This document shows positions 9,614-64,000 of a DNA stretch of 64,000 bases, piece by piece (position 1 is the stretch's first letter; every line of letters begins with the position of its first letter). A model generated the notes under the pieces. It searched no databases. It worked only from the letters and a program-made list of their open reading frames with translations, and was not told where the DNA came from. The DNA lies in assembly GCA_016647705.1 (NCBI GenBank), contig CM028339.1, positions 22,979,803 to 23,043,802 of the forward strand. Reading direction: 5' to 3'. A program made the translations under genes and the position numbers. This stretch comes from Eucommia ulmoides. Its lineage: Eukaryota; Streptophyta; Magnoliopsida; Garryales; Eucommiaceae.

Positions 9614-10900
9614 ACACACATATTTTTTTATTTTTTTTGGGTTAGAAAACGACACAACAAAAACTAACAACCAAGCGAGGGATTGTCCGTTTTCACATCC
9701 GCAATCATCAAGCCTTTGATACCCTCCGGCGGTTCTTCTAGATAAAGAAGCTCTGACCTACTATTCGCGCCCATGCGTGCAAAGAAGTCCGCACAATAGT
9801 TGACTTCTCTTCTGATGGCTTTGATTTTCAAATCATGGTTCTCAAAAATAAATTTACATTCCATTATCCATCCTCTTAGAATGTGGGAATCCGGACAATC
9901 TCCCTTGATAAGATCCACAGCATCCTGAGAGTCAATCTCAACCATCACCTTCGTATATCCTTTCGAAATCACCAGGCAGAGACTCGTATGAATCGTTCTT
10001 AATTCAGCCTCCAAGCTCGTACATGATTGAAGGTGACCAACAAAACCAATTTGCCACTTCCCATCCATGTCCCTGATAAGCCCGCCAACACCACCTCTCC
10101 CTGCGTTTCCCAAAGTGCTCCTATCGGTGTTAAGCTTGAAATTACCTGCAAGAGGAGAGGACCACTTGTATTCAGAGATCATACTGTTACCATTATGGGA
10201 ATTCAAAAGACGAAAAGCTTCCAACATATCCCGCGAGTAGCGACATATGTTGGAAACAACCACAAAAGGGTCTTGGGTGATTCCTTCGATGGTCTCTTTA
10301 TTCCAATCCTTCCAAATACCCCCATAAAATGGCAATAAACAAATATATGAAGGATGGTTTGACTGTTCGTTCTTTAATGTATTTAGAGATCCAGCTTTGG
10401 ATGTCCACATCTCGATCTCTTATTAAAACTTTTTTATCAAAAAACATGGACTACACGTGCCAAGCCTTTGGGCAAAGCTTAAGCACATGGTCAATATTTT
10501 CAATGGCTCCATTACATCTTTTACATATGGCCGAAGTATCAGTAGCCCATTTAGCTCTCAATCATTAGTAAGTAAACGTTTACGAAAAATTTTCCATAGA
10601 AAGAATTTCAAAGGTTGTGGGATTTTAAGCTTCCAAATCCAATCCCAATTAGAATAGGATTGGGTAGCATTAAAATCCGCAACAAGCGAGTATGCAGATT
10701 TGACCGTGAATTTGCCGAAATTTTCCAGAACCCAAACGACAACATCTTCTTCTAGAAAATTGGGGGGCTCAGAACTCAATATATCATTCACTTGGCTATT
10801 CGAGATAATGTGGATGATTGACAGAAAAAACTAACTACCTGAATCATTCAGAATATCGGCAACTCTTAAATCCAGTTTTTGTTGGAGCTCATTATTGCCC
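9614..10900 (-). mobile_element. 5'-truncated L1-type LINE (zinc-binding RT tail plus RNase H), with 15-bp TSD
   Basis: Reading from 10,900 down to 9,614, the element has the C-terminal part of plant LINE ORF2. A zf-RVT-like segment (about 10,791-10,450; KFTVKSAYS, WKLKIPQPLKFFLWK) precedes an RNase H domain (about 10,300-9,664) with KLNTD, SLEAEL, VEIDSQDA and NYCADFFARMG supplying acidic residues. The reverse transcriptase itself is absent, as expected for 5' truncation. Stops near 10,555 and 10,415 and a frame change between them show it is dead. The 3' end is an A-rich tail (9,620-9,640 on the opposite strand). The 15-mer CATGACACACATATA flanks it at 9599-9613 and 10901-10915. Confidence 0.88.
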
Positions 10901-33829: not shown

Positions 33830-36800
33830 TGATGAGTGGTTTATTTACCAACAAATCAAATATTTTTAGGTTCAAATATTTGTGTGTTTTCATGCATTTT
33901 TGTTAGTTTAATATGTTTTTATGTTGTTTTATAGGTTTATAAACAAATGGGTGAAAAGATGCAAAATCGGTTCAGATGCAATAACTTCAAGTCTATTTTT
34001 GACAATGATTCAATCCGATTTTGAAAAATCCCAAAACATGGAAGTTGTAGATATATGTATTATCTTTTCAGGGTTTTTGAATCATCTCAATTGAAGTTCG
34101 GATAAGAAAGTTATGGCCAAAATAAGAATTTAGTATTGGCACTGCCTTGACCATCGCTGCAGCGGTGATCCGGCAGTAAGTTTCTGCCTTCCCATTTCTG
34201 CAGCGACCCGACACCAACTGGCATTGATATTTTGAGATATTTTGCATTCCCACTCCAACCAAGAACATTTTTAGGAGCTCAAGATCATACCAAGTAAGAG
34301 GAAAACACATTTTGGAGAAGAGGAAACAAGATCAGAGCGAATTTTACGGACGTGGAACCATCCATTCTTTAGATAACGGCTATTCTCCCTTGTTTATCTC
34401 TTTCTTTCTAAACTCTTGTTTGTTGTTTGATCATGTATATATCGTTTTTAGTTGAATATTTGGTTATGACCATGAGCTAAGTGTTTATTATCTAGGGATT
34501 GATGAAATTTACATATATGTTGCTTGAGTAAATTGTTGTTTCGTTATCGGTTGTTTATCCCTATTCGATTGTGTTCACTGTTCTTTTACTTCTATTATAT
34601 GTTTTTTTTATGATATTTTGGTTGATTTGAGAATACGGGGTTTGACACTCCGGAGAGGTAACCCCGGATTCCGACTAGGGTTTAAACACAACGCAACGTT
34701 GTAATGTTTCGGAAGATTATTAAAAAGTGTGCAATCCGTAAAGTTGGGGCGAAACTCATATAATCGTTTAGATGCAATATAGGGATATCGGTGTTGACAT
34801 GAATTGCATATTCATTCACTTTACACTCGGGAGAGGTAGTGAGTGAATTTTTGATACCTAAATTGTTGGTAGTTTGAATACCGTTAATATAAACTAGATT
34901 GAATCAAACATGTTTAAGTGAACAAAATTAATCCCTAGATAATTTATTCCCATATTATAGTTTAAATAGTTATTATTTTAGTTTAGTTGTATTTCTATAA
35001 AAAACCTAAAATTAGATCGCCTAGATAAAGTTAGGTTACGATAATTACGGTACTTAACGACAATTTAAACCAATCCCTGTGGATATAACAACCCTACTCT
35101 TCCTATACTATTAAAACTTGACCCGTACACTTGCGGTAACGTGACAAATAATTCCGCTACCAAGTTTTTGGCGGCATTGTCGGGGATTGATTTTTAGATT
35201 GTTGTTGATATTGTGAATAAGCAACTTGATTTTAATTTAGGCATTTATTTTATTTTTAATTTGTGTTTTTAGTTTTGTTTGTTTTACGAGGTGTTTGTAG
35301 ATGTCTCATCAATAAGTCCTCTTAAGTTTTTCTCAATAGGATTCCAAACCATTTTATTGTGCTTGAGATAGATATAACGAGTCGCACTTTTGGTTTCCAA
35401 ATCATGGTTTCCCGAATGAGTGTCAATTACTGAATTTTCTCGACGGGTTACAAGCCGTAACCAGAACTTTGGTAGAAGGAGGAAATGGTACCACCTCTTT
35501 TTACGATCTAACCGCGGACGATGCCTATTGGTTGTTGGAAGACATGACGGAGTTTGATTTTCAGTATTGGAATTATTCAACAAGTTACCAAAGCTTGGGC
35601 GATAGTTCTACCGTTTCGGTGCTATGGACTGACACCCTGGACCAACATGTGGAATCTTCCCCTACCGTGGAAGAGATGTTCGCTGGAGACTCAAGTTTTC
35701 TGGAGGAAAACACATGACCATCTCAATGAGCTCATCATCTTGACAATATTGAGACGACCTTCACTGAAATTGATGTGACCGTAAAGTCCCTTGAGACACA
35801 AATCAGTCATCTTATTTGCTTTATTAAGACCGAGTCAGAAGTAGTAGCATTGAGAGACACACAAGTTACATCCATATGTGAAAGCCATCATGAGGAACCG
35901 AACACGAGCGGAAGAAAATTGGGAGCATTCAACAACAATGATTCGAATGAGAAGAAATTCCAATAATAGATTGAAGATGAAGAATCACATAATGATAATT
36001 ATGATTCTTCACCATTTGAGATCCAAATTTTGATGCCACCCTCGATCCAAGACGATTACATATATGAGGATCCAATGTGGCTCACTTGTTCTCTACCGCT
36101 TATAACACCGTTCATTCAAGCCCACCAAGCACATAAGACGGAGCCGAGTCATGTTGAGAGCATGTGCCAATCATTGCCATATTTCTCCAAGCTTGAAGGC
36201 GTTCTGAATCAAGACCCATATGTTGTGTTATATGACACATACTATGGACGGAATCCGCTCTTGGTAAGCCCTTCTCCGTGTCAAGTCGATGACATTAAAC
36301 CAAACGTTTCATGGGAGGCAACCCAAGTTTTCAAATAAATTAATCCATCACCGTCGACTATACTCGGAGGCGAGATTGTCTTGCCTCCCAGGTATGTGTT
36401 CAAAACCCCTTTCGTCACCATGCTATATGCCATTTGTTGAGTTCGATGTTGGGCCACTGTGGACACTGACCAGTCTAAGTTTGGGGGGATGTTGATGTTT
36501 AGTATGTTTTTATTGTTTAATGACTTTTTGTTGGTCAAGTAGTTAAGTTAAATAATTGTTAAATGTTGTGTGGTTTAAGTTAAATTTTTGTTTAGTTTCA
36601 TGTATGTTTAGTTGTTAAATGTTGCGTTGTTTAACTTCATGCATGTTTGTTTAGTATTAGTATAAGTGCGTTTATGTTTGTAGTTGTTTTTGTGTGTTGA
36701 GTTTTGTAGTTCTTTTGGACCATTACCTAATGATGATATTATCCCCTAATTGTTTATCGAGGTCAAAGGGTAATACCCATTCATGTGTGTTTTGTGTGCT

Positions 36801-37160
36801 TGACATTTCGTTTTGGTAAAAGTCATTGTGGATCCTAATTTGCACGCGCACGTAGACGCAATGTACTAGATATCCAATTGATTTGATGCCAATTATCCAG
36901 TAACCAAGTTTATGATAATTTAAGGGATTCTAGAACCTGATTGGGAAAAATTTGAGGCGAAATTCTAGGCGAGGTAGTTTAGAAGATATGATTTAGGCAT
37001 TCATTTTGATTGCTTGAGTCGTTGAAGTCTTCCATGTAAAATGTTTTACCTCTTGTTACCTTGTCGAAGCTTGTTAGCCGTTTCAATTCTGAACACGTAT
37101 CAAATGCCCTAGCCAATTAAATTTTTTCTAAACCACTGTCGCTAAACCTAAGGCACGAAA
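33830..37160 (+). mobile_element. Athila-like gag-bearing element inserted in the Galadriel-like LTR
   Basis: LTR at 33,830-35,162 (TGATGAGTGG ... CGCTACCA), followed after six bases by a tRNA-Asp primer site TGGCGGCATTGTCGGGGA (35,169-35,186). Gag-like coding traces run from about 35,330 to 36,340: an FPNHGF-like start, the segment TTSFYDLTADDAYWLLEDM that fits the Athila/Tat gag C-terminus, and DDYIYEDPMWLTC. A purine-rich AAGTTTGGGGGGATG lies at 36,478. The sequence parallels the 61.5-64 kb element up to about 37,160. No pol domain is seen. It is broken and no second LTR is present. Confidence 0.75.
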
Positions 37161-40219: not shown

Positions 40220-42747
40220 TGTCACACCCCACCCCGGGCACCCGTCACTCAAGGCCGGGCATGACGTCGACATTACGCTACATGCCCAATCAACTAAATA
40301 CATACAGATATACATAAATACACGCACTACTGTAAATGTTATATTTTTTTTTCCAAAATACTTGAACCTTTCACGGTTCACATCTGACTGACTCACCTCC
40401 AAAATGACCCTACCACCAGACTCTACCTAGTGCTAGTAGTGGACCGACTCCTAGCCGCGGTACATGAAACCAAAATTTTTTATCGGTGTACTGTCTTCAT
40501 AATAAAAATATTTTACAGATCAAGCATAAGAATTAAACACCACGTTTCAAATTATAAATAATATAACCACGTACCGTACTGAAATCCAATTCCCCTATCA
40601 CCATTGAAATAAACTGATATATTTAAAATACCTGGACCAAACATTTTAAATCAACTAACCCAATCATTTTAAATCAACCTATCCAAATATTTTAACCAAA
40701 ATATAATATAATATATCACCGCATACCGTGTTGAAAATTCAGTTCCACTGCCACCAATGAGATGAAATAATATATTTAACACCCTATCTAAATATTTAAA
40801 CCAATTAGTCTAAATATTTTTAAACGTTTAATAAAGTACACCACACCTCCTCTTCTACTAGCCATAGGATCTTTTTTACCTCACGATCGAGAGTTGCAAC
40901 GGTTACGTACTACCCGCAGGTTTTGTACTCCTGACGAGTCAATGAACCACCTGCAGGGCTAATCCTCCTGATAGGTTATAACATAATCAACCACCTGTCG
41001 GACTAACCCTCTAGACAGGTCATAATACAATCAACCACTTGCCGGACTAACCCTCCAAATATGTTTTAATATAATCAACCACCTGTCGGACTAACCCTCC
41101 AGACAGGTCTTAATATAATCAACCACTCACCGGACTAACTCTCCGGACAAGTCATAATATAATTAACCACTTGCCCGACTAACCCTCCAGACATGTCATA
41201 ATATAATTAATCACCTGCTTGATTAACCCTCCAGACAGGTCACAATATAATCAACCACCTGCTGGACTAACCCTCCGGACAGATCATAATATCAACAACC
41301 ACCTGCCGAACTAACCCTCTGGACAGGTTAAAACCGTCCCGCAGGACATGCCATCCTAACGAGATAAAAACTATGGTGTAGTCGGACACACACAAAATTT
41401 CCACATTTTTCCTTTTCTATTTTTACAAAATCCACATTTAAAACCCACTTAATCCGTATAAGCCACAAAATTGTTCATTTTCAAATCACCACATTTTTTT
41501 TTTCCAAGAAACGTATTTCTCCACAATTTATATGAAAATAAGGTTTTATAAATTTATATAGAAGACAGTACACTCACTTCGTTCTCCGCACTGCAAAAAT
41601 GTCAATGTCCAAAACCTATCTGAATGCTGGCGCCTGATTCGAATTTTTTCGCCTACCGAGATATGGGATTTGGATTTTTTATTTTTATTCGATTTTTTTT
41701 CCCCTCCTTTCCTGCTTCTATTTTGAGTTTAGCCGGCTCTCTCTCTCCCATGTTTCTGCTTCCGTCGACACGGCCACGCACGCCTCCCCTCTCACTTACC
41801 CCACCGCCGGCCGATCAGCAGCACACACACACACACGCGTGCGCTCGTTTGACCTCCCACACACACACGATGACACATACACCAGTCACTGCCGACGACC
41901 GAACACACACACCGGCGATCACCAAAACTGACGGCACACATACACACATACACACACACACACACAGTCGCACACAGCCACAGTCAACGACTGCATAGAA
42001 CACATACACACACGCTGGCTGAACGACGGCGACGATCCCACATATACCCACACGACAAATTCGACGGCTCACACACATGCATCAAAATACACACACTTAA
42101 CGTCCATACCCATGCACACCGTTAGACCGAACAACATACCCACACACGATCGCCGGTGAACCGTAACACTGCTACCGAAGACCCGATCAACCGATTGCCA
42201 CGCCGAATGAACAGCCTGAACATATACACCACTCCGTCATACACATACACATTTCCTCACCGATCACCCACACTATCGACAACTTCTCGCCGTCTGCCGA
42301 ACCTAACCTCTCTCTCTTCCTTCTCTTGGTTTTCCTGTTTCTATTCTCTTTTTTTTTTTCTTTTTCCGTTTTGGTTTCTGTGTGCAACTGGGTGTGAAAT
42401 GTGTGTGTATATATATATATATATAGATATATGAATCTTTGCCGCGTGCCTCTTCCTTCGTTGATGGGTATACACATATACATATATATAAATTACCACT
42501 ATTTCCTTCATAATGAAGGAATAGTTTTTTTTTATTTTTTATTTTTTTATTTAAATTACACTAATCTCCCTCAATTTTCTTTAAGTTATTAGTTAAACCC
42601 AAAATTTAAAATTAATATTTTTTAAAATTACGAATTAACCCCTAAAATTTTAAATTAAATAATAAATACCACAATCTACCTCGGTATTTTTTAAATGTTC
42701 TAAAATGCAACTGACGATCATGCACGTGCGAAAATTAGGGTCTTACA
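40220..42747 (-). repeat. 3' LTR of the Tekay-like fossil
   Basis: 2,528 bp, minus-strand TG...CA ends (plus strand TGTCACACCCCACC ... GGGTCTTACA). It contains a tandem array at 40,945-41,340, a CA-rich tract at 41,820-42,070 and a (TA)n near 42,410. Confidence 0.9.
40945..41340 (+). repeat. 44-bp tandem array inside the left Tekay-like LTR
   Basis: About nine copies of a 44-bp unit containing CAACCACCTGCCGGACTAAC and CCTCCGGACAGGTCATAATA. Each unit holds the inverted words CCGGAC/GTCCGG and CCTG/CAGG. Confidence 0.88.
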
Positions 42748-45700: not shown

Positions 45701-46544
45701 CATCCTATCTCATGATCTACCATTAGCTCGACACCACCTACCGACATCCTATCTCAGGGTCAACCACTGGCTCGACAAACTGACATTTCTACAGAACCTA
45801 TAACCTAAACTCTGATACCACAAATGTCATACCCCACCCCGGGCACCCGTCACTCGAGATCGAGCGTGATATCAACATGAAGCTACCTACCCAATCAACT
45901 AAATACATACAGATACACATAAATACACGCGCTACTGTAAATGTTATATTTTTTTTTCCAAAATAATTGAACCTTCCACGCTTCACATCCGACCGGCTTA
46001 CCTCCAAAATGACCCTACCACCAGACTCTACTTAGTGCCAGTAGTGGACCAACTCCTAACCGTGGTACCTGAAACTAAAAACTTTCATTAGTGTACTGTC
46101 TTCATAATAAAAATATTTTGCAAATCAAGCATAAAAATTAAACACCACGTTTCAAATTATAAATAATATAACCACGTACCGTAATGAAATTCAGTTTTCC
46201 TGTCACCATTGAAATAAACTGATATATTTAAAATACCCAAACCAAATATTTTAAATCAACCAACCCAATCATTTTAAATCAACCTATCCAAATATTTTAA
46301 TCAAAATATAATATAATATATCACCGCATACTGTGTTGAAAATCCAGTTCCACTGCCACCAATGAAATGAAATAATATATTTAACGCCCAATCCAAATAT
46401 TTAAACCAACAAGTCTAAATATTTTAAACGTATAATAAAGTACACCACACCTCTTCTCCTACTAACTATATGATCGTTTTTACCTCACGATCGGGAGTTG
46501 CAACGGTACCGTATCACCCACAGGTTTTGCACTCTTGACGGGAC

Positions 46545-46935
46545 AATCAACCACCTACAGGACTAATCCTCCTGACAGATCATAACATAATCAACCACCT
46601 ACCGGACTAACCCTCCGGACAGGTCATAATATAATCAACCACCTGCCGGACTAACCCTCCGGACAGGTCATAATATAATCAACCACCTGCCGGACTAACC
46701 CTCCGGATAAGTCTTAATATAATCAACTACCTGCCGGACTAACCCTCCGGACAGGTCTTAATATAATCAACCACCTGCCGGACTAACTCTCCGGACATGT
46801 CATAATATAATCAACCACCTGCAGGACTAACCCTCGGAACAGGTCATAATATAACCAACCACTTGCCGGACAAACCCTCCGGACAGGTCATAATACCAAC
46901 AACCACCTGCCGAACTGACCTTCTGGACATATCAA
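46545..46935 (+). repeat. 44-bp tandem array inside the right Tekay-like LTR
   Basis: About nine copies of the same 44-bp unit as at 40,945-41,340, more uniform here: several adjacent units are identical over CACCTGCCGGACTAACCCTC. Confidence 0.88.
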
Positions 46936-47437
46936 AACCATCCTGCGGGACATGCCCTCTTGACGGGATCAAAACTATGGAGTAGTCGGACACACACAAA
47001 ATTTTCATATTTTTCCCTTTTCCATTTTCACAAAATCCACATTTAAAACCCACTTAATCCATATAAGCCACAAAATTGTTCATTTTCAAATCAACACATT
47101 TTTTTTCCCAAGAAACGTATTTCTCCACAATTTATACGAAAATAAGATTTTATAAATTTACATAGAAGACAGTACATTCACCTCGTTCTCCGCACTCAAA
47201 AAATGTCGACGTCCAAAACCTATCGGAATGCTGGCGCCTGATTCAAATTTTCTGCCTACTGAGAAATGGGATTTGGATTTTTGATTTTTATTTGATTTTT
47301 CTCTTATTCTTCTCATTTTTTTTCCTTCTTCCCTGTTTCTGTTTTGAGTTCAGCCGGTTCTCTCTCTCCCCTGTTTTTGCTTCCGCCGACACGGCCACGC
47401 AACCCCCCTCTCACTCACCCCACCACCGGCCGATTAG

Positions 47438-47439
<2 letters not shown>

Positions 47440-47475
<36 letters not shown>

Positions 47476-55250: not shown

Positions 55251-56918
55251 GGGTTAATACCACTTACACCCCTCAACTATAGTGACATTCCACATACACC
55301 CCCCTTAATTTTCAAAACTACCATGGCGACCCCTTGCCGGAGTTTTTTTTTAATGAATTGACCATTTTTCCCTTACTAATTTAGACCAAAAAAATAATAT
55401 AATAATATCAGGTCGTAAAATGTCCAAATTACCGTTAAACCTTTTACTTTTTTCTTTTTCTTTTTTTTTTCTCTCTTTTTCTTCCCATCTTTTTCCTCTC
55501 TTTTTATTTATTTTTTATTTTTTTTTAAATCCTGATCATCTTCATCTGTTCAGGACTCTTCCTCTTTATCCCTATGACGACACCACCGCCGCCGACACCA
55601 TTTTCAATGGCCGATCACACCACTACCAACCATATTACTGACAACGTGACCCTTCCTATCTAAATCTATTTTGACCTCTCTCCCTCTCTAAATCAAAACA
55701 TCAGGGGAGTGTGAATCGTCATCGCCGCCGAACCGAACAATACAGAGAGGAAAATTGTATATCTGAGCCATCGATGACGATTCATGCTCCCTTGAGCAAA
55801 TCTGAGCTATCTTCGGTGTTGTTGTTTAGCGGTGTATTGTTTGAACTGAGCCATCAATGACGATTTATGCTCCCTTAAGCAGATCTGAGCCATCGATGGT
55901 GGTGGTGTTCGCTTTGGTGTTGTTGTTTGATGCTGTATTGTTTGGTTCGACGATGATGACGATTTATGCTCCCTTGTGCTAATCTTAGTCATCTTTGGTG
56001 TTGTTGTTCGCTTCGGTATTGTTTGGTTCTGAGCTATTGATGATGATTTATGCTCCCTTGAGCAGATCTGAGCCTTTGTTCGGTCATGGTGTTCGCTTTA
56101 GTGTTGTTGTTCGATGTTGTATTGTTTGGTTCAACAACAATGACGATTCATGCTCCCTTGAGCAGATTTGAGCCTTTGTTCGGTAGTGATGTTCGCTTCG
56201 ATGTTGTTGTTCGACGTTGTATTGTTCGGTTTGACGGCGATGACGATTCACGCTCCCTTGAGAAGATCCGATCCATCGATGGTGGTGGTGTTCGCTTCGG
56301 TGCTGTTCGACAGTGTATTGTTTGGTTCGATGACGATGATGATTCACGCTCCCTTGAGCAAATTCGAACCATCGATGGTTGTGGTGTTCGCTTCGGTGCT
56401 ATTCGACAGTGTATTGTTTGGTTCGATGACGATGATGATTCACGCTCCCTTGAGCAAATCTGAACCATCGATGGTGGTGGTGTTCGCTTCGGTGTTGTTC
56501 AGCAGTGTATTATTTGGTTCAACAACGATGACGATTCACGTTCCAAGCAGATCTGAGCCTTCGATGGTATTGAGTCACTGGGAAAGATGGACAGTGAATA
56601 TTAGTAGGAAGGAGTCGGTGAAAAGAGAAAAATAAAAAAGAAATAAAAAATGATTAATTAAAAAGAAATAAGGGTAATTTGGTCAATGAAGGTAATTAAT
56701 AAGGGTAATATAGTCATTTGAATTGAGAAGAAACTGTTCAAGATGGTCAACACTGACAATTTTGACTTTCCAAGGGCATTTTCGGAAGAAAAAAATGAAT
56801 TGGGGGTCTGAGTGTTATTTAACGAAATAGTTCAAGGGGTGTCCCATGTAGTTTTAAAAGTTGAGGAGATTCCCGTGGTTTTGGTCAAAAGTTGAGGGGG
56901 TGTAAGTGGTATTAACCC
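55251..56918. mobile_element. Non-autonomous DNA element with long TIRs and an internal repeat array
   Basis: The left end GGGTTAATACCACTTACACC and the reverse complement of the right end are identical over these 20 bases; similarity continues with CCCTCAACT and, further in, TTTTCAAAACTACCATGG against TTTTAAAACTACATGGG. At 1,668 bp it has no transposase. The flanks are A/G-rich (AAGAAA both sides), so the target duplication cannot be sized. Long TIRs without coding capacity suggest a Mutator-like non-autonomous element. It sits in moderately repetitive DNA that may itself be an old LTR (TATAAATA at 57,104). Confidence 0.78.
55779..56560 (+). repeat. Nine-copy tandem array (83-100 bp, last four at exactly 96 bp)
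   Basis: GATTCACGCTCCCTTGAGCA or a close variant starts at 55,779, 55,862, 55,961, 56,045, 56,145, 56,245, 56,341, 56,437 and 56,533. The intervals are 83, 99, 84, 100, 100, 96, 96 and 96. Each unit also holds GAGCCATCGATGGTGGTGGT and GTGTATTGTTTGGTTCGA. Because 96 is a multiple of three, both strands stay open with a 32-residue period, which does not by itself imply a protein. Confidence 0.92.
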
Positions 56919-57480: not shown

Positions 57481-57961
57481 TTTTTAAAGGAAAATTTCAT
57501 TAATAGGGGAATTAAACCCCCCAAGAGATATACAATAAAATATACACAATGACTAAACCAATCATACAAAACAAAACATCTTCAAACAAAGAGAAGTAAA
57601 ACAATAGACCAAATAAGACTGCGTACACAACAACCTAACCAGCATGAATACACTAGTCATGGAATAATCAAACAAAGCTAACAGCGAGGTTAGCAAACAG
57701 AACGTCCAGGCCTAATCCGAAATCGAAAACTTGAAAGAGACGAACACAGAAGAATCCAAAAGCAAACCAAACCAAACCAAAACACTGCTTGTGCCCGGGG
57801 AGATGGAAATGTAGCAGCTAACCAAACAAAACACAAAAACCTCAAACAATGAGAAAACCAAACAACATAGCAAACATGTGCCTACACAAGAATACTAAAC
57901 CTAGATCCTAATAGCAACAGTCGAAAGAAACTGGAAGAATCAAATCATAGCCAACGCTAAG
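57481..57961 (-). mobile_element. Possible LINE 3'-UTR fragment
   Basis: On the minus strand the segment ends CCCCTATTAATGAAATTTTCC followed by A-rich DNA, similar to the AATGAAATTTCC-type end of plant L1 LINEs. The body is an A/C-rich (plus strand) non-coding stretch. No ORF or duplication was found; it stops exactly where an LTR begins. Confidence 0.35.
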
Positions 57962-59359
57962 TGATAGGTGTAATTTACCTATCTATTTCCAGACTAAATT
58001 TGTTAGTTTTCAAATATGGTTATTACGTTTTAATACGTTTTTATGTATTTTTGTATAAATCAGGTATGTGAGGGTGAAAAGGCATGAAAACAGATCATAA
58101 ACGATCAAATCGGATCAAGAATAGTGGAAAAACAAGCATAAGGGCAAAATTCAGAACTGCAGCCCACGGTCGTGCGACCAGACCACTGCCGCGGTGGTCA
58201 AAATACAAAGTAGGCCTTAAACTTGCTGAAAACCCACTGCCGCAGCGATGAGATCCATCACCATGGCGGTGAAACAACAGAAAGGTCTCTGATCCCACCG
58301 CCGTGTCCACCGTTGAGACCGTGACCTAACTGACATACTCACCGTCGCGGTGGTCACTCTGCACAGCTGTTAGATATTTATTTAGATATTTTGAGCCCCT
58401 ATATCTTATCATCTCATTTCCATTCGGCAAGAAGAGACCATTATAGACCCCTTAGGGTTTCTAATATTTTGAGAGTGTTTTGGGGAATGTTCAACCAAAT
58501 CCGAAGGAGAAGAACACGTTGCGAAGAAGAAGAAGCGATCGTTGAACAGTTTTAGCAGCAAATCTTCGGACTACGGCTAAGTTCTTCCGTTTCTCTCTTT
58601 AATTTCTTAACTTTGGTAGTTTGTTGAGCATGTTTAGCTCGTTTCGCATTGTATAAATGGTTATGGTCATGAGCTAAACAGAATTTGGCTAGGGATTAAT
58701 AATATTTATGAAATCGTTGTTTGTTTGAGTTGTGTTTTGTTAATGGTTGTTCTTCGCTATTTCGATTTTGTTTAACGTTATTCTTTGATTATATACTTTT
58801 AGATATATAAAGAATACGGGGTTTGACACTCGGGAGAGGTAACCCCGAATTCGAATTAGGGTAAATACAACGCGATGATCTAATAACTCGGGAGGGAGTT
58901 GAAAGTGTGCAATCGATGACGTTAGGGCAAGACTCATTTGACCTAGTGTCGTTAAGATGTTGAGGGGGACTTCTTCGTTGATGCGAAGTTTCATATTCAC
59001 TCATCTTATACACAGAGAGGTGGTGAGTGAGTTTACGATACAGAGATTGTGGGATAGGTTGAACGTCGTTATTGTAAACTAAACGAGACCAAACACGTTT
59101 TTCTAAATGAAGTTAATCCCTAGATAACCTTTTTTCCTAAACATCTCAATATAATATTATAGTATAATTAGTTTAATTAACTTAGTATTAGTATATTTAA
59201 TTATAAACTCAATTTATGTTGCTTAAATAAAGTTAGGTTATGACATTGCGGTACTCGATAATAATCTCAACCAATCCCTGTAGATACGACAACCCCTACT
59301 CCTTCCCAACTTGATCTGTACACTTACGATGAAAGTGGCAACGTAATATTCTGCCACCA
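57962..59359 (+). mobile_element. Athila-like family LTR, plus orientation
   Basis: 1,398 bp, TGATAGGTGTAATTTACCTA ... TATTCTGCCACCA. It carries the family U5 signature (CAATCCCTGTAGATACGACA, TGTACACTTACGATG) and is followed after six bases by a tRNA-Asp primer site. It is nearly the mirror image of 60,154-61,501. No coding region of this copy remains beside it. Confidence 0.85.
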
Positions 59360-59365
59360 AGCTTT

Positions 59366-59421
59366 TGGCGCCGTTGCCGGGGATCGAACTCGGGTCACCC
59401 GCATGACAGGCGGGAATACTT
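59366..59421 (+). other. Extended antisense copy of mature tRNA-Asp(GTC) at an LTR primer site
   Basis: The first 18 bases, TGGCGCCGTTGCCGGGGA, are the usual tRNA-Asp primer site of Athila/Tat elements. The match to the tRNA complement does not stop there: it continues through the T arm, variable region and anticodon arm to GGCGGGAATACTT, 56 bases in all, with two differences (GAACTCGGG for GAACCCGGG, GCATGACAGG for GCGTGACAGG). The leading TGG is the complement of the post-transcriptional CCA tail, so the source was a mature tRNA, not a tRNA gene. Confidence 0.85.
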
Positions 59422-59441
59422 CTCGAAGTGGTTTTAGCGAC

Positions 59442-60138
59442 GGATCTTTAGATAAAATCTAGTCTCCTCGTTTCTCTCTTTACTCTTAGATTTGGTTGGT
59501 TGTTTATATATGTTTACCTTGTATTTCATTGTATATAGGGCTATGGCCATGTGTAGCTGAACATATATTGTATGGGGAGCGATTGACTTCGTGAAAACGT
59601 TATTTGTATAAAATCTATGTTTCGTTAAAAGTTGTTCTTGTTTGTTCGATTGTGTTTACCGTTTTTCAAATTTATTTGCTTGTTTAAATATATTGAGAAT
59701 ATGGGGTTTGATACTCGGGAGAGGTTACCCCTAATTCAGACTAGGGTTAAACACAACACGACGATCTAACGACCCGGGAGGGCGTTAGAAAGTATGCAAT
59801 CCGTGACATTGTGGCGAAACTCATGTGACCTAGTTTCATATAGACGTTGAGGAGGACTTTGGTGTTGACTCGAAGTCACATATTCATTCACTTTACACTC
59901 GGGAGAGGTAGTGTTTGAGATTTCGATACCGAGATTGTCGGATAGGATGAACGCCGTTAATGTAAACTAGATTGAAACGAACACGTTTAAATGGACGAAG
60001 TTAATCCCTAGATAATAAACTCCCATAAACGCTTATATTAGTATAATTAATTAATTTAGTTTAGTATAATTATTATAAACTATATTTTTATCGCCTAAAT
60101 AAAGTTAGGTTATGATAAACGCGGTACTCAACGATAAT
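59442..60138 (+). mobile_element. Partial second Athila-like LTR, plus orientation
   Basis: From GGATCTTTAGATAAAATCTA onward it parallels the middle and 3' parts of the LTR at 57,962 (TTTCTCTCTTTACTCTTAGA; GGGAGAGGTTACC; ATAAAGTTAGGTTATGATAA), with clearly lower identity. It therefore represents a different, older family member. It ends at ACTCAACGATAATT, where the inverted LTR's primer-site remnant begins. Confidence 0.75.
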
Positions 60139-60153
60139 TCGCCACCAAAAACT

Positions 60154-61501
60154 TAGTGGTAGAATATTACGTCACTACTTTCATCGCAAGTGTACGGGTC
60201 AAGTTTTAGTATAGATGGGAAGGAGTAGTGGTTATCGTATCCACAGGGATTGATTGAGATTATTATCGAGTACCGCGATTGTCATAACCTAACTTTATTT
60301 AGGCGACATAAATTGAGTTTATAATTAAATATACTAATACTAAATTAATTACACTAATTATATTATAATACTATATTGAGATATTTAGGGGAAAAGATTA
60401 TCTAGGGATTAACTTCGTTTATAAAAACGTGTTTGGTCTCGTTTAGTTTACAATAATGACGTTCAACCTATCCGACAATCTTTATATCGTAAACTCACTC
60501 ACTACCTCTCCCGAGTATAAGATGAGTGAATATGCGACTTCGCATCAATGAAGAAGTCTCCCTCAACATCTTAACGACACTAGGTCACATGAGTCTTGCC
60601 CCAATGTCATCGATTGCACACTTTCTAACTCCCTCCCGAGTTATTAGATCTCCGCGTTGTGTTTACCCTAATTCGAATTCGGGGCTACCTCTCCTGAGTG
60701 TCAAACCCCGTATTCTCTATATATCTAGAAAAACATATAATCAAAGAATAACGGTAAACACAATCGAAATAGAGAAGAACAACCATTAACGAAACACAAC
60801 TCAAACAAATAATGATTTCATAAATATTATTAATCCCTAGACAAAATCCATTTAGCTCATGACCATAACCATTTATACAATGAGAAACGAGCTAAACATG
60901 CTCAACAAACTACCGAAGTTAAGAAATTAAAGAGAGAAACGGAAGAACTTAGCCGTAGTCCAAAGATTTGCTGCTAAAACCGTTCAACGATCGCTTCTTC
61001 TTCTTTGCAACGTGTTCTTCTCCTTCGAATTTGGTTGAGCATTCTCTAAAACACTCTCAAAATATTAGGAACCCTAAGGGGTCTCTAATGGGCTCTCCTT
61101 ATCGAATGGAGAGAAGAGAAGAAGATATAGGGCTCAAAATATCTAATAGCTGTGCCAAATAACCGCCGCAGCGGTAAGTATATAGGCTGGGTCATGGCCT
61201 TGGCGGTGGGATCAGAGAGCTTTCTGTTATTTCACCACCGTGGCGGTGGGTTTTCAGCAAGTTTAAGGCCTACTCTGCATTTTGACCACCACGGCGGTGG
61301 GCTACAGTTTTGAATTTTGCCCTTATGCTTGTTTTTCCACCGTTCTTGATCCGATTTGATCATTTATGATTCGTTTTCATGCTTTTTCATCCCATACACC
61401 TAATTTATATAAAAATACATAAAAATATATTAAAACATAATAAACATACTCGAAAACTAACAAGTTGGGTTTGAAAATAGATAGGTAAATTACACCTATC
61501 A
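60154..61501 (-). repeat. LTR forming an inverted pair with 57,962-59,359
   Basis: 1,348 bp, reverse complement of the LTR at 57,962 with high identity by eye (for example the GAGTGTCAAACCCCGTATTC stretch and the Asp-primer-proximal end). The two arms are separated by 794 bp. Confidence 0.85.
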
Positions 61502-64000
61502 AATACCCCCAAACTTGGAATTTTACTAGTTCTCGAACAAAACACCCACACAAATCAAGAAAATATAACAACTAATTACTAAATTGAAAACTAAAAATGA
61601 AAAACACTAAAAATAATAATGTACAAGTTTTGAATATCATCTATCGGCCAAACAATTTTCCCTCATCGGCCCCCAATCCTATTGAGTTTAAGCATAAAAT
61701 AAACCATGTGGTGTTCTAGAATTTCAACATTCGATGATAATAAGCGCCATTCTAGATCCTATTAAAAGTGTGTGTGATTAAACTCAAATATACAATTATC
61801 CGTTGATAAGATGGGATTATCCCTCAAATAAGCTCATGACTAAAACCATTAAGGTATAGGGAATCCATAAGCCTGACCTGGGTTCTATTCTCCACTAATG
61901 TAGGCTTGGTAGTTTAAAAAGATCAATAGGATTTGGTTCGATTTTGGGAAAATGGTCCAGGGTATATCGGGATAGAAAACGGGTTAACGTTGTTAACTTA
62001 ACGCTACCCAAGTCTCAATGCTTGGCACAAAATCACTCTCGAATCCCCATAGATAAATTGAAACAACCCTGAACATTCATTTAAGAATGTCGTAGTCATT
62101 TGTCAAAAGAAACGGAAATTGTACTATATGTACGTATGATTTTTATTTTTATTTTTTACGAGCCACACCCCCAAACTTATTCGATTATTAGAATTTCACG
62201 GGTGTGGTTAAAACGAAAGAAAAACGACAAGTGAGTACTCGAATACCGAACCAATTAAAAAGTTCGCCTTAAACCCAATCGCTTACTTCAAGTAGCATTT
62301 GAAACTGCTAACTTGATTCACTCAAATTGTGCCTTCGGCTCAGCGATATAGGTTTGGAAATAAATTTTATCAGCTAGCATATTTGTTATGTGTTCAGAAT
62401 TTAAACGGATATTTGGCTTCAACAGGGTAACGAGGGATAATGATATAACAAGGTTAGCTTCAAAGGCTCAAGCGATAAAAACGAATGCCTAAATCATATC
62501 TCCCGAACTACCTCGCTTAGGATTTCGCCTCAAATTTCCCTCAAACCAGGTTCTAAAATCCCTATTGTCCTAAACTTGGCTAACATATAGTCGTTTTAAA
62601 ATTAAATAGACAGTTATACATTGAGTTTATGTGCTCGTGTATTTAGGATCTACAATAACTTTTACTAAAACGATACATCAAGCACATAGAACACACATGA
62701 ATGAGCTTTAAGCTCGGCCTCAATAAACAATCAGGGGACAGAATCATCATCGGGTAATGGCCCATATGAAGTCAAAACTCAGCACATAACAACAACAATC
62801 CTAAAAACATTCTACACTAAACAAACATGCAATACGGTAAAACAATAAAACATACTAACATCCTACACATCACCGCCAAATTTAAAACGGACAGTGTCCT
62901 CAACGACCCATCAGCGATCCCAATGAAAGCATAAAGCATTATAATGAAGACGAGGGTTTAAAACACGTACCTGGGAGGCGAGAGAATCTTGCCTCCGAAT
63001 CAAGTCAACAGTGACAGATTTAATTTATTTTTTTCCTTGGGTTGCCTCCCAAGAAGCGCGTGGTTTATTGTTCTCAGCCTGACATGGAGAACAGCTTGTC
63101 AAAGAGCATCTTCTACCCGTAGTAAGTGTCGTACAATACCACATAGGGGTCTTGATTTAGTACACCCTCAAGATTGGCGAGATTTGGCATTATTTGGCTC
63201 GAACTTTCAACAAGACTCTCCATCGGCTCATGTGCTTTGTAGGCATGAAGAGCATTGCTTATGGTGGCAAAGGACAAGTGAGCCACATAGGATCCTCGTA
63301 AATGTGATCGTTTAGAATCGATGGTGACATCACAATTTGAATCTCCAATGGTAATAAATCACAATCGTCGATCCATGATTGGGTCCTCATATCATTCGAA
63401 TAATCATATTTGAACTCTCCCAAGTTCCTTCCGCTCGTTTCCGGTTTCTCATGGTGGCTTTCACATGATATGGATTGTGTATCTCCCAGTGCCACCGCGT
63501 CTAACTCGGCCTCAATCAAAACAGATAAGCTAAACGATTCGGGTCTGAAGAGACGTTACGATTGCATCGATTTCAGCACAGACCGTCTCAATATTGTCGA
63601 GATGATCATCGTGCTTATTGATCCAGTCATTCGTTTCCTTCCAAAATGTCTGAGTCTCCCCCATAAATTCAACTAATATCTCTTCCAAAGGGGAAGACTC
63701 ATCCTCTTGGACCGTAGTGTTAATCCATGATGCCGTAGTATTGAAATAATCCTCTAAGCTTTGGTGACTTGGTGAATAAATCCAACTCTAATAATCAAAG
63801 GCCGCCAATTCCTCCAATGACCAAAAGACTTCATCTGCGGTTAGGTTGTAAAAGAAGGTAGTATCGTTTTCTCCTTCCACCCACGTTTTGGTTGCGGCTT
63901 GTAACCCGTCGAGGAAATTTAAAAGTTGACACTCCATCAGGAAACCATGATTTGGGAACCAGAATAGCAAATCCTTGTAACGTTCCCAAGCACAATAGAA
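60154..64000 (-). mobile_element. Athila-like gag-bearing element, minus orientation, continues past right edge
   Basis: LTR at 60,154-61,501 (minus-strand TGATAGGTGTAATTTACCTA ... ATATTCTACCACTA). Just upstream on its strand lies a polypurine tract (AAGTTTGGGGGTATT, complement 61,502-61,516), so it serves as a 3' LTR. Internal DNA extends rightward off the window. Gag traces lie at 63,970-63,200: FPNHGFLMECQLLNFLDGLQ, TTFFYNLTADEVFWSLEEL, DHIYEDPMWLTC. Between gag and the LTR about 1.6 kb shows no pol domain. It is broken, with a few breaks. A TGGTGGCGA word beyond its outer LTR end (60,139-60,153) resembles a primer site. Confidence 0.78.

Follow-up and report, generated by a model that had tools for sequence, protein, structure and literature searches.

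Anatomy of the element in the window

The window, a stretch of 64,000 nucleotides of Eucommia ulmoides DNA, contains near its right end a 7.6-kb non-coding element that extends from position 57962 to the equivalent of 65585 outside the window and is flanked on both sides by CTAAG. Both of its outer ends are U3 ends of LTRs, which are therefore inverted, and TGATAGG is found at each outer end. Read from the left, the order is LTR, spacer, tRNA copy and a sense piece of an LTR, followed in inverted orientation by LTR, polypurine tract, internal region, primer-binding site (PBS) and LTR:

57957..57961, no strand: left target-site duplication CTAAG, directly before TGATAGG
57962..59359, plus strand: left LTR with its U3 end outward, TGATAGGTG...GCCACCA; inverted copies elsewhere in L036
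59360..59365, plus strand: 6-base spacer AGCTTT between the LTR end and the primer complement, AGTTTT in most relatives
59366..59420, plus strand: 55 nt complementary to mature tRNA-Asp(GUC), beginning with its CCA end and reaching approximately the D loop
59384, plus strand: position facing A58 of the tRNA, where copying normally stops; T in this copy and in 82 of 82 copies read
59421..60138, plus strand: sense piece of another family LTR, from about LTR position 780, without U5 end
60145..60153, minus strand: inverted spacer and inverted first three primer-complement bases (CCA), sequence read directly
60154..61501, minus strand: inverted LTR, running from its U5 end on the left to its U3 end at 61501; serves the minus-strand element as 3' LTR
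61502..61513, minus strand: polypurine tract preceding the LTR at L036 4304, with the minus-strand sequence TTTGGGGGTATT
61514..64000, minus strand: interior of the minus-strand element, which continues beyond the window to about 64166
Beyond the window, at the equivalent of 65586-65590 (L036 8389), no strand: right CTAAG copy, directly after the opposite U3 end

The sense LTR piece abuts the tRNA copy directly. The internal region of the minus-strand element is 2.7 kb long, and beyond it lie a 19-nt PBS (L036 6970-6988) and the 5' LTR ending at 65585. The left LTR agrees to 88.3% with the inverted copy at L036 6995-8388, outside the window, and to 85.7% with that at L036 2959-4304. The event in the window is not recent, since the LTRs of the element are only 86-88% alike; their likeness to 13 other LTRs compared is below 80%. 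No recognised coding was found in the internal region, in which the longest ORF starting with ATG, GTG or TTG comprises 108 aa, and L036 contains no ORF of 200 aa from stop to stop. Matches to RVT_1 and aspartyl protease occur in the relative L034. The GGGGGT polypurine tract of the element is presumably also shared with the Ogre/Tat/Athila superclade.

Among the hallmarks of an LTR retrotransposon, here of the non-autonomous Ty3-gypsy type, TG...CA termini and a 5-bp duplication are present, as are, on the minus strand, a PBS after the 5' LTR and a polypurine tract before the 3' LTR. The outer LTRs are not direct repeats, a direct pair being confined to the minus-strand half, and coding for reverse transcriptase or protease is absent from the element (L036). 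The composite is thus a product of LTR retrotransposons and not a normal one itself. A foldback or terminal-inverted-repeat DNA transposon was considered and rejected on account of the primer complement and the polypurine tract; it is further contradicted by similar LTRs that form direct pairs in L021 and L026. The complement to the 3' end of tRNA-Asp and the 5-bp duplications resemble those of the non-chromoviruses of the Ogre/Tat/Athila superclade of Ty3-gypsy elements, among whose primers tRNA-Asp is described (PMC6317226). Unlike these, the element has no coding; the likeness is one of primer type and general layout only.

Several other features were observed. A second, ordinary-looking family member at 34366-37156 combines sequence resembling an LTR with a normal primer site near 35169 and the leader TGATTTTTAGATTG; its internal sequence is 73-76% like that of the element described above. 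A direct repeat pair of 1.6 kb (40220-41836 and 45825-47455, 88%), with an 8.8-copy array of a 44-bp unit in each repeat, probably represents the LTR pair of a further element, each LTR enclosing a minisatellite. A tandem array of units of about 96-100 bp (55763-56568) lies close to the composite. On the minus strand, an ORF of 243 aa with a strong DUF617 match (PF04759; 32121-32852) is probably a host plant gene, and an ORF of 248 aa (9664-10410) matches RVT_3 (PF13456). Beside the element at the related locus L024, a minus-strand ORF (L024 8968-9900) with matches to a viral movement protein (PF01107) and a caulimovirus peptidase (PF02160) is probably an old pararetrovirus-like insertion.

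Identity and recurrence of the tRNA copies

Plus-strand strong-stop DNA normally contains 18 primer bases, ends at m1A58 and is transferred to the other end of the minus strand. The copy in the window directly follows the LTR end, here GCCACCA (CTACCA-type), and the spacer; it begins at CCA and extends beyond A58, as does a plus-strand overrun. The antisense tRNA-Asp match from the CCA end reported in the preliminary description was confirmed: positions 59366-59421 agree in 54 of 56 bases with the complement of the tRNA-Asp sequence first used, CCA included, and positions 59366-59420 in 53 of 55 with the complement of the commoner gene form plus CCA. Base 59421 fits the minor isodecoder only, a form found in one of the nine tRNA-Asp gene copies read (L038). 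These alignments support the proposal made there that a reverse-transcribed primer, copied past the usual stop at A58, lies beside the LTR. The two mismatches are C-to-T and G-to-A changes, a type that accounts for 248 of the 304 substitutions across 82 related copies, an excess that would be expected of methylated repeats. Chance is excluded by a genome search with a 121-base query, in which the window itself matched at 1.4e-55 and further places at 1e-16 or better.

It might be argued that the sequence came to lie beside the LTR through insertion of a tRNA gene, of a SINE derived from a tRNA or of a tRNA copied independently; a reported case of reverse-transcribed tRNA adjoining a provirus was interpreted as arising independently of priming (PMC12220202). 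We regard such an origin as extremely improbable. ARAGORN detected no tRNA gene and Rfam no family in the window, so that 59366-59421 is not a tRNA locus, the origin that would have spoken against the earlier proposal. An encoded CCA, at the position after the discriminator base, is absent from all nine tRNA-Asp gene copies read, which bears out the earlier argument that the CCA complement speaks against insertion of a tRNA gene. Moreover, the left boundary of the complement is fixed at the spacer that follows the LTR, the orientation is the same throughout, and each copy continues a normal primer site.

The copy had been presented as a single curiosity, but such copies recur, with joints that are mostly locus-specific, and many are longer than that in the window, up to the full 75-nt complement. 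The 946.7-Mb genome was searched with the 121-base query around the copy, which returned 41 matches, with 40 of 349 candidates scored; among these, at least 38 places besides the window matched at 1e-16 or better. Of the remaining matches, C1:39406844 coincides with a perfect match to a tRNA-Asp gene, and a weak one lies beside another hit. The preliminary description had also proposed counting long tRNA complements after LTRs. LTR-PBS junctions of this type number 11,189 (27-base pattern, up to 3 mismatches), and in 124 the tRNA match extends to base 31 or further (pattern of 22 specified bases, at most 2 mismatches), with no match to either control (reversed pattern in the case of the junctions); overrun copies thus amount to roughly 1% of the junctions, a rate obtained from patterns of unequal stringency.

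The 82 copies that were read consist of a first set of 42, picked mostly by similarity to the window and therefore favouring long copies, and a second set of 40; the tRNA-gene-like L062 was dropped, and the reading covered the 124-junction search apart from 25 listed places and 24 that were only counted. Copy length ranges from 31 to 75 nt, with the tRNA 5' end (base 75) reached in 8 of 82; in the second set base 51 is reached in 28 of 40 copies and base 75 in 3 of 40. All complements have one orientation and start at the first base (75 of 82) or at base 3-6 (the other 7). Misreading opposite A58 was looked for and seen in none of the 82 copies; the uniform T would fit unmethylated primers but also faithful bypass of a methylated base. 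Base 56 is readable in 52 copies, the window copy not being among them, and identifies the major isodecoder in 51 and the minor one in a single copy (L061).

For comparison, 12 ordinary junctions were sampled, a small set of exact primer-site matches on the first contigs listed. In all of them the tRNA match stops at position 19, opposite A58, or within 2 bases of it, and both the tRNA extension and an antisense LTR are absent; an antisense LTR follows the junction in 31 of the 82 overrun copies (Fisher P 0.007). The extension is therefore not the ordinary leader of every family member, which would have spoken against the earlier proposal of an aberrant event.

Joints and flanking duplications

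Within 45 nt downstream of the tRNA copy, 31 of the 82 copies have an antisense LTR, 14 a sense LTR or PBS and 37 other sequence. In the antisense joins the second LTR begins no more than 25 nt from its U5 end in 18 of 31 cases, whereas the expectation under uniform joining is 51 in about 1,525 for each case (P about 4e-19). The sense joins of L071 and L089 start at the U3 end. The sequence classed as other is often an internal piece of the family in either orientation, and L018 and L024 join the same internal region in sense and antisense, respectively. Thirteen of these 37 copies have no match starting at the joint among the other loci compared, so that for part of the set a junction with chromosomal DNA or a later rearrangement may be involved. 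In L056, a tRNA copy of 70 bases is followed in tandem by another one of about 28 bases with the same complement, and L023 contains tandem U5-tRNA units. An interpretation of the latter as strong-stop arrays starting at R was dropped, as the LTR is not matched there by the first 14-17 bases downstream of the tRNA. Tandem primer sites about 60-95 bp apart were also noticed after one LTR in L030, L108 and L034; L108 is an ordinary junction, so a duplicated primer site occurs there as well.

L044 and L053 continue straight into the ordinary leader, and L027, L034, L067 and L078 return to the primer site and leader, from which it follows that some second transfers, in part shifted, were completed. 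The joints are mostly unlike from locus to locus; however, they are not all independent, since L066 and L084 have one joint in common (57 bases), and L060 and L102, which both join LTR position 380-381 after 51-53 bases, may share another. L066 and L084 lie 8 kb apart on opposite strands of C4, and a similar pair of hits occurs about 97 kb away (C4:23552449 and C4:23560295), which suggests a duplicated large inverted element.

The copies that lead into the leader, the shared joints and the very existence of about 124 copies could be explained by an ordinary extended PBS, i.e., a subfamily leader complementary to most of the tRNA that was inherited and selected. A selected leader would be expected to have one common 3' boundary; the extents vary from 31 to 75 bases, the downstream sequence differs at most loci and the ordinary junctions end at or close to position 19. 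An inherited leader is for these reasons very improbable.

The start of the left LTR was located in 14 of the 20 larger loci. In four of the 14 (L018, L020, L021, L027) a polypurine tract, in part degenerate, lies before it, and a similar, less clear tract is present at a fifth locus, L019. A polypurine tract before the left LTR identifies it as a 3' LTR, and the tRNA copy consequently follows a 3' LTR. This is the place where an unremoved primer lies. In seven of the nine remaining, testable loci a perfect 5-bp duplication surrounds the composite. Outward U3 ends adjoin the duplication on both sides, each time with its own 5-bp sequence, in L024, L031, L035 and the window element; in L023 and L026 it lies between a U3 and a U5 end, and in L028 at an internal CA, a weaker case for which chance is harder to exclude. 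L022 and L033 lack a flanking duplication. The layout of L031 is particularly simple: an LTR, a 71-base tRNA copy and an inverted LTR, with ACGTA on both flanks. L020 and its upstream neighbour L063 constitute a tail-to-tail dimer of 11 kb, with a 63-base tRNA copy as the link between its halves; the ends of the dimer, ACAAC and ACGAC, agree in 4 of 5 duplicated bases; the 5' LTR and the central LTR of L020 belong to different subfamilies, and a nested insertion could yield the same arrangement.

Rearrangement after normal integration, through nested insertions, inversions or gene conversion of neighbouring LTRs, would find ample material in the dense LTR families and multi-copy tangles, such as L018, L025 and L030, and would account for the two testable loci without a duplication. 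Arguing against it are the single 5-bp duplications that enclose the whole composite at seven loci, with LTR termini in six, the concentration of antisense joins at the U5 end (18 of 31) and the CCA-bearing tRNA copies, as long as 75 bases, for which rearrangement offers no source. We consider it improbable. The preliminary description was thus right in assuming an aberrant event beside an LTR, but it recognised no more than an overlong primer site. The inverted LTRs, the U3 ends at both outer sides and the one target-site duplication around the whole had been missed, and they identify the copy as the mark of an aberrant joint.

Proposed origin and significance

Most probably, the window contains an aberrant integrated product of a tRNA-Asp-primed LTR retrotransposon whose reverse transcriptase overran the primer stop and whose cDNA end was joined to other cDNA prior to integration. 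According to this model, reverse transcriptase would have passed A58 and copied the T, anticodon and D arms (55 of 75 bases). The overrun end could then not pair normally for the second transfer and would have been joined instead to other cDNA of the family, in this case to a segment from within a second LTR; that segment would itself have been joined to the U5 end of a complete, oppositely oriented element. The joint DNA would have U3 ends on both sides, through which integrase could insert it, leaving CTAAG on each side. The primers that were copied presumably carried no methyl group at A58. From the tail-to-tail clustering, together with the U3 ends and single duplications, we infer that joining, by template jumping or end joining, preceded integration.

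The same overrun might have been followed by host end joining of two linear cDNAs rather than by template jumping of reverse transcriptase; the product would be the back-to-back counterpart of two-LTR circles. This possibility, which we rate as appreciable though on the doubtful side, splits the main explanation and leaves its first half untouched. In its favour, joins often begin where a linear cDNA would be expected to end: at a right end as left by primer removal, of the AAAACTTGG type (L031, L085, L092), at an inverted primer site of about 19-20 bases (L055, L069) or at the U3 TG (L071). Template jumping is the more natural source of the tandem U5-tRNA units of L023, the second tRNA piece of L056 and the jumps into internal sense and antisense positions (L018, L024). 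By either route, overrun of the primer may be a recurrent fate within the family, in which strong-stop or full-length cDNAs joined through U5-tRNA ends form back-to-back dimers whose two U3 ends are paired by integrase. This proposal is tentative, and we give it close to an even chance. Should it be true, copies such as L031 would be integrated dimers of plus-strand strong-stop DNA, and the genome would archive hypomethylated primer tRNAs, including the isodecoder that primed each event.

Single cases are known from retroviruses. A circular murine virus DNA with a tRNA between the LTRs was found by Colicelli and Goff, as described in PMC12220202, which also describes a tRNA adjoining an HIV provirus. 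The murine virus circle resembles the copies reported here in that reverse-transcribed primer tRNA is joined to an LTR end. It was a single circular clone with mutations in the LTR and an incorrect primer, whereas here the primer is cognate and the products are integrated, at dozens of loci and often with inverted LTRs. The murine tRNA-Gly lacks its four 5' bases (PMC12220202), and 7 of the 82 copies end at base 71 of 75; all 7 belong to the biased first set of 42 and none to the second 40, and no parallel is claimed.

With unmodified tRNA, HIV-1 plus-strand strong-stop synthesis runs to the tRNA 5' end, giving a product P1 that, as treated in the review, is not counted among the products active in the next step (PMC13191261). 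The overrun copies share with this overextension at an unmethylated A58 the copying beyond A58 up to, in some cases, the tRNA 5' end (PMC13191261); the HIV-1 products are cDNA in cells or test tubes, and those found here were kept in the genome through abnormal joining and integration. Inserts of primer site or tRNA are likewise retained between LTR ends at HIV-1 two-LTR circle junctions (PMC5618025). Such circles are head-to-tail (PMC5618025), whereas the joins described here are integrated and the antisense ones, mostly tail-to-tail, constitute the larger class of LTR joins. In the part of the open-licence literature covered, neither tRNA overrun copies across a whole genome nor plant LTR dimers joined tail to tail were found to be described. 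In its genome-scale, back-to-back form the phenomenon appears to be new.

The control of plus-strand termination by tRNA methylation rests, as far as the sources consulted show, on work with HIV-1, and the about 124 copies provide a natural record of it in a plant-like host. They suggest an origin for inverted-LTR and LTR-tRNA-LTR elements, which pipelines that assume direct LTRs would likely miss or misfile. Less methylation of A58 is predicted to result in more such elements, and failed replication products need not be dead ends.
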